Source of the DNA: an uncultured Chloroflexota bacterium
GTDB lineage: Bacteria; Chloroflexota; Anaerolineae; Anaerolineales; Anaerolineaceae
Assembly: GCA_902774215.1 (NCBI GenBank)
Contig: CACYHU010000002.1
Location: 1 to 61,445 of the forward strand
Length of the DNA: 61,445 nucleotides
Direction: 5' to 3'
Below, one piece after another: positions 8,661-12,593 of this stretch. Numbering within the stretch: the first letter of the stretch is position 1; each line of letters opens with the position of its first letter. The notes below the pieces were generated by a model. The model made no database searches and was not told the DNA's origin. It was given only the letters and a program-made list of their open reading frames with translations. Made by a program: the position numbers and the translations under genes.

Positions 8661-11600
8661 CTATATCATTTCGTTTTCCATTGAAAAATCTTCCAGCCCG
8701 AGTATTTCTTCACTCCCGTCATCGAATAAACCGGTAAGGCACAATCCAAGTCCCATCAGCTCATGAACCAGAACACGGAAAGATGCCGGAATACCGGACA
8801 ATTCGATCGGATAACCGTGCATCATATTCCATCCTGCCTTTTTTCTCCCTTCCGTATCATCTGATTTGATGGTCAGCATTTCATGCAGCAGATTCGCACA
8901 GCCGTAAGCCTCCAGAGCCCAGACCTCCATTTCCCCGATCCGCTGTCCCCCGTTGTTCAATTTTCCCGCAAGCGGCTGCTGTGTGATCATGCTGTAACCG
9001 CCTGTTGAGCGTGCCTGAACCTTATCTTCTACGAGATGGTGCAGTTTGATCATATTCATGACGCCCACATTCACCGGATGGTCGTAGCGTTCTCCTGTTC
9101 TTCCGTCTCTCAGCCACTGTTTGCCGGTTATTGGGAGCGGTTCATTGATCCGGGCTGCCCAGCGGCTTGCAGTCTCACGCAGATTCTCCTCATCATCCGG
9201 AACATGATCCGGATATCCCATCCGCTTCAGCCAGAGTTTCAGACATACCCTGATTGCGTTGGAATCATCCGGGTATTCCGCAGGACTGTTTTCAGGTATG
9301 TTCTTCCAGATAAAAACCTTATCTGAAGAACAGCCGTTGTTTTCTATCCATCGGCAGGCGACTTTTTCTCTGAGTTCCCTTTCCGACAGGTAATCATTCC
9401 CGAGCCATTTTCCGGCATAATCATAGACCAATTTCTCTTCATTGATATTGAAGCATTCCGGATGATAAAGGGCCCTGTAATATCTTGTATTCTGTGAGAT
9501 TCCCCAGGGATCCTTCTTCGGCTTCGGGGCTTTGCTTTTCTCAAGGATCGACTTCTCCCAGGCTTCATTCCGCAGATCTTCCGCTGCCGTATCAAAAAGC
9601 CATGCCCGGCTCAGCTCAGCTTCGATATCATGAACGGACGCACTATCGAAAACAGGAGATTCGCAGCGGATGCCCAGACGGGATGCGGCCCATCCAAGCC
9701 ATACTTCCAGTATCTGTCCTACATTCATGCGTCCGGGAACTCCCAGGGGATTCAGGAGGATGTCAACCGGCGTTCCGTCATTCATAAAAGGCATATCTTC
9801 TTCTGGTACGATCCTGGCGACAACACCTTTATTCCCGTGTCTTCCGGACATCTTGTCTCCCGCTTCCAGTTTTCGCTTCTTCGCCAAAGTCACACGGACA
9901 ACAAGATCCGTCACCGACTCCATATTCGGGAGATCATCATGAGTAAATACTTTTACATCGATCACTCTGGCCTGCATATAGGAAGGCAGACGGATGGAAG
10001 TGTCCTTGTATCCCCTCGCTTTTTCACCGAAAACGTCTCTGACAGCCTGCTCTTCCGGTATCTCTTCATCCGTATCATTTTCTCTTCGGGGAGATATCCG
10101 GCCGATAATCACATCTCCGCCTTTCAGAAACGTACCTACCTTTGCAATCCCGCGGTCGTCGAGATGGGACAGATCATTCTGATTCAATCCGGGAATATCA
10201 CGGGTTATTTCTTCAACCCCTGATTCCGTATAAATGGTTTTCGCCTCGAACTGCATAATATCCAAAGAAGTAAATTTGTCCTCCCGAATCAGTTTTTCAG
10301 ACACTACGATGGCATCCTCAAAATTGCATCCGTCCCAGCACAGGAAAGCAATCACCGGATTATGCCCGAGGGCCAGAACTCCGTCTTCCGTACAGGCCGC
10401 ATCGGCCAGGACGTCTCCTTTTTCAACTGTCTGACCGGAACTGACAGCAGGTTTCTGATTGATGCAGGTAGCGTAATTTGATCTCATATATTTCCTGAGC
10501 TGAATGCTCCGGAGTACATTATCCGGGCTGATCAGGTCAATAAAATTTCCGTCGGCATGCGTTACTGTTCCGTTCCATTGAGACCTCAGCATCTGTGCTG
10601 AATCAAGTGCCGCGTAGCGTTCCATTCCGGTCATCACCAGAGGTATTTCCGGATAAAGCAGCGGAACAGCCTGCGAAAGCATATTCGTTCCCATCAGGGC
10701 ACGGTGCCCGTCATCGTGTTCAAGGAAGGGAATGCATGCGGCGGATACACCCGCAGCCTGCTGAGGCGAAATATCAAGAAGATCAACTTCGGAAGGCCTG
10801 CAGACCAGAAAATCCGGATACCGCCGGCATTTTACCCTGCTCTCCTGAAATTCTCCGTATTCATTCAGCCGGGACGTAGACTGTGCAATTGTGTAACGGT
10901 CTTCCGCGACTGCATCGATATATATGATCTCATCCGTAACATATGGAATCACCGCAAAATCTGCAATATCAGAATTTGCAAAATCCGTACAGTCAGCCAT
11001 TTCACGGGTGATTCTGACACCTGCTTTGAAAATAAGATTTCCTGCGGAATCTCTGACATCGGTTCTCGGTACATGGCCGATCACGTTCTCATACCCGAAT
11101 TCAGCGCTTCCGGAAACAACCCTGTAAGGAGTCTCAATATATCCGTATTCGTTTATGCGGCCATATATTGAAAGCCGGCTGATAAGACCTGAATTCTTTC
11201 CCTCCGGAGTCTCCACGGGGCAGAGTCTCCCGTAATGTGTGTGATGAATATCCCGGACATCAAATCCCGCCCTGCTTCTGTCAAGTCCGTTTGGTCCTAA
11301 TGCGGACACTGTGCGTTTCTGCCTCAGCTCTGAAAGCGGATTGTTCTGATCCATGAACTGGCACAGTTCAGATGAAGCAAAGAAAGATCTCAGCGCATAA
11401 TTTACCGGTGCGGGATTGATATAATCCTCAGCGGAACGGATTTCTTTTGGATCCAGAATAAAGCTCAGCTTACTGCTTGTTACCCTTTCCATTTCCCGCA
11501 TACCGGAGGAAAATGCACGAAGAATCAGTTCGCCGCAGGATCGGGTACGCCTGCTGCCGAGATGGTCGATATCGTCATTGACAGGCTTTCCGTTTTCCTG

Positions 11601-12593
11601 CAGACGGATTACCGATGCAATAGCTTTCACTACATCAAGAATGGTCAGTGTCCTGTGTGAATCAGGTATGGATTTTTCAAGATTGAGGCGTTCATTCAGT
11701 TTTTTCCGACCGGGCCGCTGGAGATCATATGCGGCCAGATCGTAAAACCGCCGGTGTATGTATTTCCGGATATCTTCCATTTCACCTTTCTGTCTGTTCT
11801 TCCGGAAAAACCACCTTGCGGCATTTTCTTTGTTTACAGCTTCATACAGTTTTGATTCAGCCTGTATCGATGCAGCCAGATACCTCAATACTGGGCTTCC
11901 GCATTCCTTCTCAAACACCCTGTACAATTCCGAGTCGGAACAATCACTGAATGGAGATGATCCGGATCCATCGTCTGCAAAACACAGAATACGGAGAAAC
12001 GCGGTAAAAGGAATCTGAAGTCTTCTGTCGTACAGGATGCAGATACCTTTATCTTCTTTTGGAAATATCTCGATGTAAGTTCCTTTATCCGGCATTATTT
12101 TCGCATGCTGGTTTATTTTTCTCGAAGATTCATCATAAACTGCGGAATAATAAATGCCCGGAGATTTCACCAGCTGAGTGATCACAACTTTTTCAGTTCC
12201 TGAGATAATGAAGCTGCCGTAGGAAGACATCTGCGGAAGTTCTCCGAGACAGATTCTGGATTTCCACGAATTTCCGGTAATCATATCCCTCAGGAGCACA
12301 TCAGTAATGAGGGACCTGCCATAGGTCAGTCCTCTTTCAATACATTCCTGCAGCGGATATTCCGGAGGATCGAGCCTCCAGAATAAATTACCGAATTCCG
12401 ATACGATGGAGTTGTCTGGAAAATAAATAAGGTAGCGGCTGTTTTTCGATCTGACCGGTGAAATATCCTGAAAAACCTGCTGGATTCCTCTGTCCATCAA
12501 GTTCTGGAATGCATCCAGCTGCAGAGCGATCAGGCTTGGCAGTTCTGTTATGTTTTTATAGCGGTTGTATGATTTTACGATTCTTTTATCCAT
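8661..12593 (-). CDS. rpoB: Divergent RNA polymerase beta subunit (RpoB paralogue)
   Basis: 1310 residues, full length. Conserved blocks in order: protrusion/lobe ICLGELPQMSSYGSFIISG (114-132), the rifampicin region (410-436), CPVETPEGKNSGLISRL (458-474), IPFLEHDDGHRALMG (621-635), GDKMSGRHGNKGVVARI (912-928), LNPLGVPGRMNVGQILE (947-963) and RSTGGYSMITQQPLAGK (1195-1211) to VWALEAYG (1224-1231). The catalytic-centre lysines and arginines in these blocks are kept, so it is probably functional. A ~110-residue insertion (about 1005-1150) resembles that of Chloroflexota RpoB. There is no rpoC, rplJ or rplL beside it, and many normally invariant positions differ, so it is taken as a second, non-housekeeping copy. 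No clear ribosome site precedes the ATG. Confidence 0.93.
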   Translation of the reverse strand: MDKRIVKSYNRYKNITELPSLIALQLDAFQNLMDRGIQQVFQDISPVRSKNSRYLIYFPDNSIVSEFGNLFWRLDPPEYPLQECIERGLTYGRSLITDVLLRDMITGNSWKSRICLGELPQMSSYGSFIISGTEKVVITQLVKSPGIYYSAVYDESSRKINQHAKIMPDKGTYIEIFPKEDKGICILYDRRLQIPFTAFLRILCFADDGSGSSPFSDCSDSELYRVFEKECGSPVLRYLAASIQAESKLYEAVNKENAARWFFRKNRQKGEMEDIRKYIHRRFYDLAAYDLQRPGRKKLNERLNLEKSIPDSHRTLTILDVVKAIASVIRLQENGKPVNDDIDHLGSRRTRSCGELILRAFSSGMREMERVTSSKLSFILDPKEIRSAEDYINPAPVNYALRSFFASSELCQFMDQNNPLSELRQKRTVSALGPNGLDRSRAGFDVRDIHHTHYGRLCPVETPEGKNSGLISRLSIYGRINEYGYIETPYRVVSGSAEFGYENVIGHVPRTDVRDSAGNLIFKAGVRITREMADCTDFANSDIADFAVIPYVTDEIIYIDAVAEDRYTIAQSTSRLNEYGEFQESRVKCRRYPDFLVCRPSEVDLLDISPQQAAGVSAACIPFLEHDDGHRALMGTNMLSQAVPLLYPEIPLVMTGMERYAALDSAQMLRSQWNGTVTHADGNFIDLISPDNVLRSIQLRKYMRSNYATCINQKPAVSSGQTVEKGDVLADAACTEDGVLALGHNPVIAFLCWDGCNFEDAIVVSEKLIREDKFTSLDIMQFEAKTIYTESGVEEITRDIPGLNQNDLSHLDDRGIAKVGTFLKGGDVIIGRISPRRENDTDEEIPEEQAVRDVFGEKARGYKDTSIRLPSYMQARVIDVKVFTHDDLPNMESVTDLVVRVTLAKKRKLEAGDKMSGRHGNKGVVARIVPEEDMPFMNDGTPVDILLNPLGVPGRMNVGQILEVWLGWAASRLGIRCESPVFDSASVHDIEAELSRAWLFDTAAEDLRNEAWEKSILEKSKAPKPKKDPWGISQNTRYYRALYHPECFNINEEKLVYDYAGKWLGNDYLSERELREKVACRWIENNGCSSDKVFIWKNIPENSPAEYPDDSNAIRVCLKLWLKRMGYPDHVPDDEENLRETASRWAARINEPLPITGKQWLRDGRTGERYDHPVNVGVMNMIKLHHLVEDKVQARSTGGYSMITQQPLAGKLNNGGQRIGEMEVWALEAYGCANLLHEMLTIKSDDTEGRKKAGWNMMHGYPIELSGIPASFRVLVHELMGLGLCLTGLFDDGSEEILGLEDFSMENEMI

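Follow-up and report, generated by a model that had tools for sequence, protein, structure and literature searches.

The 61,445-bp window, which is the whole of contig C2 in the draft genome G000 of an uncultured Anaerolineaceae bacterium (Chloroflexota; 4.78 Mb in 240 contigs, completeness 91, contamination 4), contains a second gene for the beta subunit of RNA polymerase, named here rpoB2, carried on a conjugative element:

8661..12593, reverse strand: rpoB2, element-encoded RNA polymerase beta subunit of 1310 aa (from domains, curated models, selection and residue comparison)

The open reading frame (ORF) starts with ATG and has zero internal stops. Its product, which together with all window-type proteins is referred to here as RpoB2, contains six Pfam RpoB domains and lies well over the cut-offs of two NCBIfam rpoB equivalogs (NF001616, 1148 bits against a cut-off of 896; TIGR02013, 1106 bits against 801). 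The full-length RpoB described in the first-pass annotation of this DNA is therefore real, and the divergent blocks quoted there, QQPLAGKLNNGGQR and KSDDTEGRKKAGWNMMHG, are both found in the translation. That annotation also proposed that this was a second rpoB on mobile DNA. A search of G000 identified two rpoB genes beyond the window copy, an ordinary one on contig C27 (1377 aa) and a further element-type gene on C38, split by a single in-frame TAA (11708-11710) into pieces of 341 and 978 aa. Contamination or a mis-called host rpoB was considered and rejected, since the host copy lies on another contig and its product is only ~46% identical to RpoB2. The matching rpoC that was also sought did not emerge: G000 has one rpoC (C51) and one rpoA (C88), each of the four RpoB2 carriers likewise has one of each, and neither gene was detected on the element, in a search that did not extend to omega. 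The absence of an adjoining rpoC, correctly noted at the outset, is by itself weak evidence, because chromosomal rpoB genes in the genus are also apart from rpoC (~1.2 Mb away on the same contig in G037 and 0.66 Mb in G038).

Among the matches listed, RpoB2 occurs in four of 147 family genomes, all of a single genus: G000, with its two copies, and G047, G042 and G046, whose proteins are respectively 97%, 98% and 69% identical to that of the window. The G042 sequence comprises the first 517 aa only, ended by the edge of a 7825-bp contig, and three copies are full-length and open. Profile searches of 396 class and 301 phylum genomes, samples that overlap each other and the family set, gave no further RpoB2 among the matches listed, with a best non-RpoB2 score of 1363 bits versus 2646 and 2916 bits for the two G000 copies. 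Nor does the gene occupy a normal chromosomal position in relatives, since it was not found in 10 of the 14 genus genomes (drafts) and is on the element in the rest.

Mobility, selection and origin of rpoB2

The longest contig of the element is C3 of G047 (202,642 bp), which encodes RpoB2 at 97589-101521 together with a VirB4-type ATPase, a TrwB/VirD4-type coupling protein, a T2SSE/TadA-type ATPase, a large serine recombinase, DnaB-like and UvrD helicases, RecT, RecD2, ParB_N proteins and an SNF2 helicase. It also has three sigma-like genes, of which one scored below threshold. The VirB4-type ATPase and coupling protein genes (163274-165868 and 167724-170444) score over Pfam gathering scores and below NCBIfam cut-offs, and G047 C3 has matching parts in contigs C25, C2, C3 and C16 of G000. 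The compared parts of these four contigs match the 27-190 kb stretch of G047 C3 with a nucleotide identity of 73-97%, and gene order is kept apart from two moved pieces. This colinear match makes the window a central part of an element that spans at least 163 kb; together the four G000 contigs come to ~193 kb, and the total size is probably ~200 kb. No terminal overlap was found in G047 C3, and the comparison of G000 with G047 revealed no element border. A chromosomal right end of G047 C3 was rejected, because the cassette located there lies inside the element in G000: this sugar-transport-like cassette (83% identity) is at 192627-199547 in G047 C3 and at 36891-43825 in G000 C3, different places that identify it as mobile cargo.

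A second set of element contigs in G000, C38 and C52, with its own VirB4 and its own copy of parBL (the ParB-like gene beside rpoB2), is inferred to represent one second element. Among the 14 genus genomes, element VirB4 is present in G000 (two), G047, G046, G042 and G043. The G043 gene (L133, on contig C78) has two in-frame TAG codons, and neither RpoB2 nor an element sigma was found in that genome, so that the G043 element looks to be decaying.

Synonymous divergence (dS) between species indicates that the element has moved horizontally. For G000 and G047, median dS was 0.113 for 23 genes in the window, 0.040 for 28 on C16 and 0.350 for 10 on C25, whereas nine chromosomal genes surrounding rpoB gave 1.574 (Mann-Whitney p=3e-6, 61 vs 9 genes). 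The same disparity holds for the two types of rpoB, with a dS of 0.108 for RpoB2 against 0.611 for host rpoB in the comparison with G047, and of 0.094 against 0.815 in that with G042. Four window genes are nearly identical in G042 (median dS 0.005) and a 689-aa gene beside RecT is only 70% identical in G047, which identifies the elements as mosaics. Mis-binning is possible for any single draft genome, but the element is carried by four separate bins, which belong to a small clade whose host RpoBs are 93-96% identical to the G000 protein.

RpoB2 is under purifying selection, about three times looser than that on host rpoB. The ratio of nonsynonymous to synonymous divergence (dN/dS) for the window copy was 0.123 against G047 and 0.072 against G042 (517 aa), versus 0.026-0.049 for host rpoB. 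Comparisons with G046 (0.108) and with the two C38 pieces (0.068 and 0.144) gave similar values at a dS of 2.0-3.1, near saturation, and two further comparisons yielded no dS. It can therefore be said with near certainty that RpoB2 is a mobile, selected, full-length RpoB.

The RpoB tree suggested in the first-pass annotation was built from 39 and from 36 rows. In both trees RpoB2 forms one clade (support 100; 100/100), placed inside the RpoBs of the order on a very long stem of 4.2-4.5 changes per column. An origin outside the host class, from a foreign phylum, was rejected by the approximately unbiased (AU) test (p=0.004) and is also at odds with a ~150-aa insert near aa 1005-1150, which RpoB2 shares with host RpoB. 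Class RpoBs align across this insert, and the other Chloroflexota RpoBs among the matches listed align to about model position 1000 and resume later. Having been proposed as a mark of element-encoded copies, the long insertion is thus common property of the class. The AU test did not reject placement as sister to the genus hosts (p=0.33), as sister to the five closest hosts (p=0.18) or outside the hosts of the order (p=0.20), and the exact position in the tree is untrustworthy because of long branches and an odd amino-acid make-up in three RpoB2 rows.

The other main features of the window are as follows:

7258..8505, reverse strand: parBL, ParB/Noc/KorB-like protein of 415 aa (Foldseek on an AlphaFold2 (AF2) model; sub-threshold NCBIfam ParB matches)
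12714..14789, forward strand: PLD-domain protein with a P-loop-like motif, divergent from rpoB2 (Pfam)
14861..15691, reverse strand: RecT-family annealing protein (Pfam)
15696..17765, reverse strand: 689-aa protein with no Pfam family, conserved in the G047, G046 and G042 copies
36540..37463, forward strand: element sigma-70-family factor, region 2 clear, region 4 diverged
38670..40751, reverse strand: SNF2-type helicase, element core
41459..43219, reverse strand: ParB_N-domain protein, element core
43325..45571, reverse strand: RecD2-type helicase, element core

The two neighbors of rpoB2 are much as first described, a ParB-like gene and a PLD protein. parBL lies directly downstream of rpoB2 on the same strand in all four copies with that side assembled (window, C38, G047 and G046), and its AF2 model (pLDDT 64.7) has Noc/Spo0J/ParB proteins as best Foldseek matches (best E 0.004). 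The PLD-domain protein is also encoded in the G047 and G042 copies, and at 1e-6 it had no match in the G046 or C38 contigs. In 147 family and 400 order genomes, strong parBL matches (at least 439 bits) are confined to G000 (twice), G047 and G046, with weaker ParB-type matches of at most 99 bits elsewhere. A parBL scan of genome contigs placed CADATZ010000003.1 (RUG13631) and CADACE010000023.1 (RUG13159), both labeled 'uncultured Chloroflexi bacterium', among the carrier contigs; we take RUG to stand for rumen genomes and the class to be Anaerolineae.

Elsewhere in the window, a transposase is found with transketolase-type and iron-containing alcohol dehydrogenase-like genes at 22998-27405, a place occupied by other cargo in G047. 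Very long proteins that look secreted are encoded at 30982-34758 and 52241-61438, near a sub-threshold CpaB-like gene (48688-49392); one of them has Ig-like Pfam matches, and they are possibly surface or mating-contact proteins. Rfam gave no match in the window at gathering score.

Pattern scans of IMG/VR with parBL and RpoB2 returned no relatives, and matches to known plasmids and phages were rejected as such. Of 66 matching plasmid records, 40 were listed, at 39-43% identity; of five inspected, four have an ordinary rpoB followed by rpoC and one is unannotated there. Three records (L073, L074 and L076, from C. difficile, Agathobacter and Monoglobus) show this ordinary arrangement, two of them amid ribosomal protein genes, and their plasmid label looks doubtful. 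The 34 matching phage records, 20 of them listed (~41% identity at full length, up to 51% for partial matches), are mostly unannotated or bacterial-looking, and we take them as bacterial rpoB. Two near-full-length RpoBs on separate contigs were also observed in each of two Chloroflexota genomes outside this class, G715 (L121/L122) and G770 (L123/L124). Among the open-licence PMC papers listed in the full-text searches made, judged by title and abstract opening, none describes rpoB on a conjugative element.

Divergence of RpoB2, element sigma factors and a candidate motif

We compared RpoB2 with a panel of 79 RpoBs, of which 75 came from Chloroflexota genomes, three from Bacillota and one from E. 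coli and from which just the identical rows had been removed, taking as invariant the 388 columns conserved at 97% or more in the panel and counting a change when all RpoB2 copies with a letter differ. By this measure RpoB2 is altered at 81 of the 388 columns (80 if the cut C38 copy is treated otherwise), which substantiates the differences at usually invariant positions noted in the first-pass annotation. By region, in E. coli numbering and with p values uncorrected for ten regions, changes are scarce at 671-831 (1 of 49 columns, p=1e-4) and 1061-1240 (4 of 52, p=0.01) and abundant in the lobe (16 of 40, p=0.003) and in the flap at 832-937 (18 of 53, p=0.017), with no clear excess in the remaining regions; the names of regions and the catalytic roles of residues are those we assume to apply. 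Residues R678, E813, D814, K1065, K1073, R1106 and H1237, which we take to be catalytic or to bind nucleoside triphosphates (NTP), are identical in four RpoB2s, in keeping with the catalytic blocks having been described as kept. At the flap tip, L901 and A904 are changed in four of four copies and L902 and I905 in three of four, each of these residues being kept in 79 of 79 panel RpoBs, and F906 is kept. The flap-tip helix spans 900-909 (PMC3985653); sigma region 4 binds both this helix and the C-terminal region of beta, and the phage protein AsiA grips L901, I905 and F906 (PMC6755090).

The window sigma factor forms one family with a paralog at 39519 in G047 C3, with members 42-100% identical to that of the window. 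At an identity of at least 42%, this family has two members each in G000, G047 and G042 and one in G046. It is thus present in four of four RpoB2 carriers and in none of the ten other genus genomes, which have only matches of 28-29% identity and, in one case, none passing. Region 2 of the window sigma is well recognized (PF04542, 48.6 bits vs 24), and no Pfam region 4 was detected at E<=0.01. In an alignment of six element sigmas from four genomes with two host sequences (host segment TRERVRQIE), the element proteins keep region 2 and replace the host TRERVRQIEAQAL segment of region 4. The third sigma-like gene of G047 C3 (187703-188551) is more diverged, with sub-threshold Pfam regions 2 and 1.2.

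The top over-represented 8-mer upstream of element ORFs is TTTTGTAT, found at 12 of 145 ORFs against 2.1 expected (p=0.005 for the maximum, 200 simulations), in a test that is not element-specific because the top 8-mer of the host set also beat all 200 simulations. It precedes none of 95 host ORFs (p=0.004), is found 12 times in sense and 3 times in antisense orientation upstream of element ORFs, and recurs upstream of VirB4, RecD2 and parBL at corresponding positions in diverged copies. The following sites lie in the window:

8571..8578, reverse strand: candidate promoter or regulatory motif TTTTGTAT upstream of parBL, in four of four copies aligned
43252..43258, reverse strand: candidate motif TTTGTAT upstream of the ParB gene
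45595..45602, reverse strand: candidate motif TTTTGTAT upstream of the RecD2 gene, in three of three copies aligned

TATAAT is found upstream of 25 of 95 host ORFs versus 18 of 145 element ORFs (Fisher p=0.009), and a scan of window positions 7100-15800 for sigma70-like sites yielded 15 against 16.1 expected by chance. A -35 partner for TTTTGTAT was rejected, with AACA at -17 in only 4 of 20 sites. At positions 23652, 25048 and 27679 of G047 C3, strong hairpins are directly followed by TTTTGTAT, like terminators with an unusual tail. As an element promoter, TTTTGTAT is a weak candidate, to be regarded as a lead.

A proposed hybrid RNA polymerase and its alternatives

We propose that RpoB2, as part of a large conjugative element of rumen Chloroflexota, would be made in a cell that retains its own rpoB and would compete with the host beta for host alpha, beta-prime and omega, so that some of the host core enzyme would become an RNA polymerase of the element type. 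The altered flap and lobe would tune this hybrid core to the element sigma-70-like factors, whose region 4 appears to be without the usual residues of the -35-reading helix. The hybrid enzyme might then transcribe element genes from unusual promoters, and might be less accessible to those factors of host or phage that bind the normal flap. On the sequence evidence, RpoB2 probably assembles into an active enzyme. Its pairing with the element sigmas appears evenly poised between acceptance and doubt, and we hold opinion to be just as balanced on the full model, in which RpoB2 would replace the host beta and work with element sigmas on element promoters. That the element beta and -35-blind sigmas might convert host alpha2-beta-prime-omega into a polymerase that is specific to the element and reads a promoter code of its own is a more tentative proposal, for which we lean somewhat toward doubt.

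Several observations weigh against this proposal. One of the five RpoB2 copies is interrupted by an in-frame TAA, so that RpoB2 can be dispensable, at least beside an intact copy, and the AF2 model of residues 340-1310 has a pLDDT of 29.7. The alignments of some NCBIfam sigma models to the window sigma extend through residue 293-294, so that region 4 of this protein is diverged rather than absent, and the changed -35-reading helix rests on one alignment. The co-occurrence of sigma and RpoB2 does not prove partnership, because both genes ride one element; an altered flap tip that matches an altered region 4 is a stronger hint in that direction. As for promoters, TTTTGTAT precedes rpoB2 only in the C38 copy, with TTTGTAA in its place in the window and G047. 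In the longest element contig alone it is neither significant (G047 C3, sense 5, antisense 3, p=0.36) nor the top 8-mer. It follows stable hairpins at 12 of 36 intergenic sites, and may therefore be a terminator tail. The sense bias of TATAAT at host ORFs is only marginal (25 vs 14, p=0.054).

The first-pass annotation suggested that a second rpoB might serve either to remodel host transcription or to bypass inhibitors of the normal enzyme. The altered flap tip, the element sigmas and the changes in the rifamycin (Rif) region fit both, and in our view the same evidence points more to dedicated element transcription. Under target replacement, RpoB2 would be an inhibitor-insensitive beta, comparable to Nonomuraea rpoB(R) and Nocardia rpoB2, whose spread was driven by exposure to rifamycin-like antibiotics of rumen neighbors. 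RpoB2 differs from host RpoB at 510, 512, 526, 536, 567 and 569 of the Rif region, with E510, C512 and Q526 in four RpoB2s and changes at 567 and 569 flanking N568. However, most Rif-contact residues (S531, D516, L533, R540, P564, N568 and I572) are kept; the panel itself varies at position 526 (H in 67 of 79, another residue in 12); and of the 81 changed invariant columns, 74 fall outside 506-575, chiefly in lobe and flap, far beyond the needs of resistance. No Pfam-scanned window protein (a set short of all ORFs, and with no dedicated resistance search) bears a resistance-family name. H526N is described as central in the Nonomuraea paralog, with equivalents in other two-rpoB actinomycetes (PMC5431353). 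On balance we consider target replacement unlikely.

The enriched flap changes would suit a shield that keeps the element polymerase working under anti-sigma or flap-binding inhibitors of phage or defence origin, the flap being the site bound by AsiA and P7 (PMC6755090, PMC3985653). Such a shield would leave the dedicated sigma genes unexplained, and the analysis, which included no PADLOC search, pointed to no phage pressure or inhibitor; we regard it as decidedly unlikely. A beta that acts as a decoy or dominant negative, titrating beta-prime or sigma and so damping host transcription, would account for an element on which no partner rpoC was found, but the catalytic and hybrid-binding regions are the best preserved (5 of 101 columns changed in 671-831 plus 1061-1240), which would be needless in a decoy and renders the idea improbable. 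Least credible is an old captured rpoB drifting to a pseudogene: the in-frame TAA of the C38 copy and the very long branch are as expected of a relic, whereas three full-length open copies with unchanged catalytic residues and a dN/dS of ~0.1 speak strongly against it.

The gene for RNA polymerase beta is commonly regarded as a single-copy housekeeping gene inherited vertically, and it serves as a species marker. If the proposed model is true, a transferable beta with matching sigmas would make the transcription core itself swappable by mobile DNA, and host and element subunits would together build an orthogonal transcription system. This would make it possible to test to what extent one subunit of a working polymerase is replaceable, how flap and sigma region 4 co-evolve, and whether mobile elements operate private transcription programs in the absence of a full polymerase. 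As a caution, rpoB-based markers can be misled by mobile rpoB2.

Among known systems, jumbo phages of the phiKZ type are similar in that mobile DNA encodes beta-type subunits for its own transcription. These phages encode split, strongly diverged beta- and beta-prime-like parts, whereas RpoB2 is a single full-length bacterial RpoB of the host's class, with no rpoC found on the element; the four phiKZ-type matches listed are 24-29% identical over 27-45% of the query. The nearest precedent is provided by the rpoB paralogs of Nonomuraea and Nocardia, second copies that are presumably chromosomal and without a second rpoC. RpoB2, by contrast, is on a conjugative element moving between species, has diverged to ~46% identity with the host protein, has a changed flap and brings sigmas. 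Position 526 is substituted in both cases (Q in RpoB2s), although the same 12 of 79 panel RpoBs also lack H there. As described for rpoB(R) of Nonomuraea gerenzanensis and rpoB2 of Nocardia farcinica, two rpoB paralogs per genome give two RNA polymerase forms, and this natural merodiploidy is tied to rifamycin resistance and a global switch in gene expression (PMC5431353). Mobility, a flap change and companion sigmas are not known to be part of this precedent. Yeast linear plasmids offer another example of an extrachromosomal element with its own polymerase genes, but theirs is described as a non-canonical two-part eukaryotic enzyme, while here only beta and sigma are supplied (PMC6211774). 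In the appropriation of sigma by T4 AsiA/MotA, host RNA polymerase is likewise reprogrammed at the flap tip and sigma region 4, by small proteins added to the host enzyme (PMC6755090), whereas the element described here would exchange beta itself.

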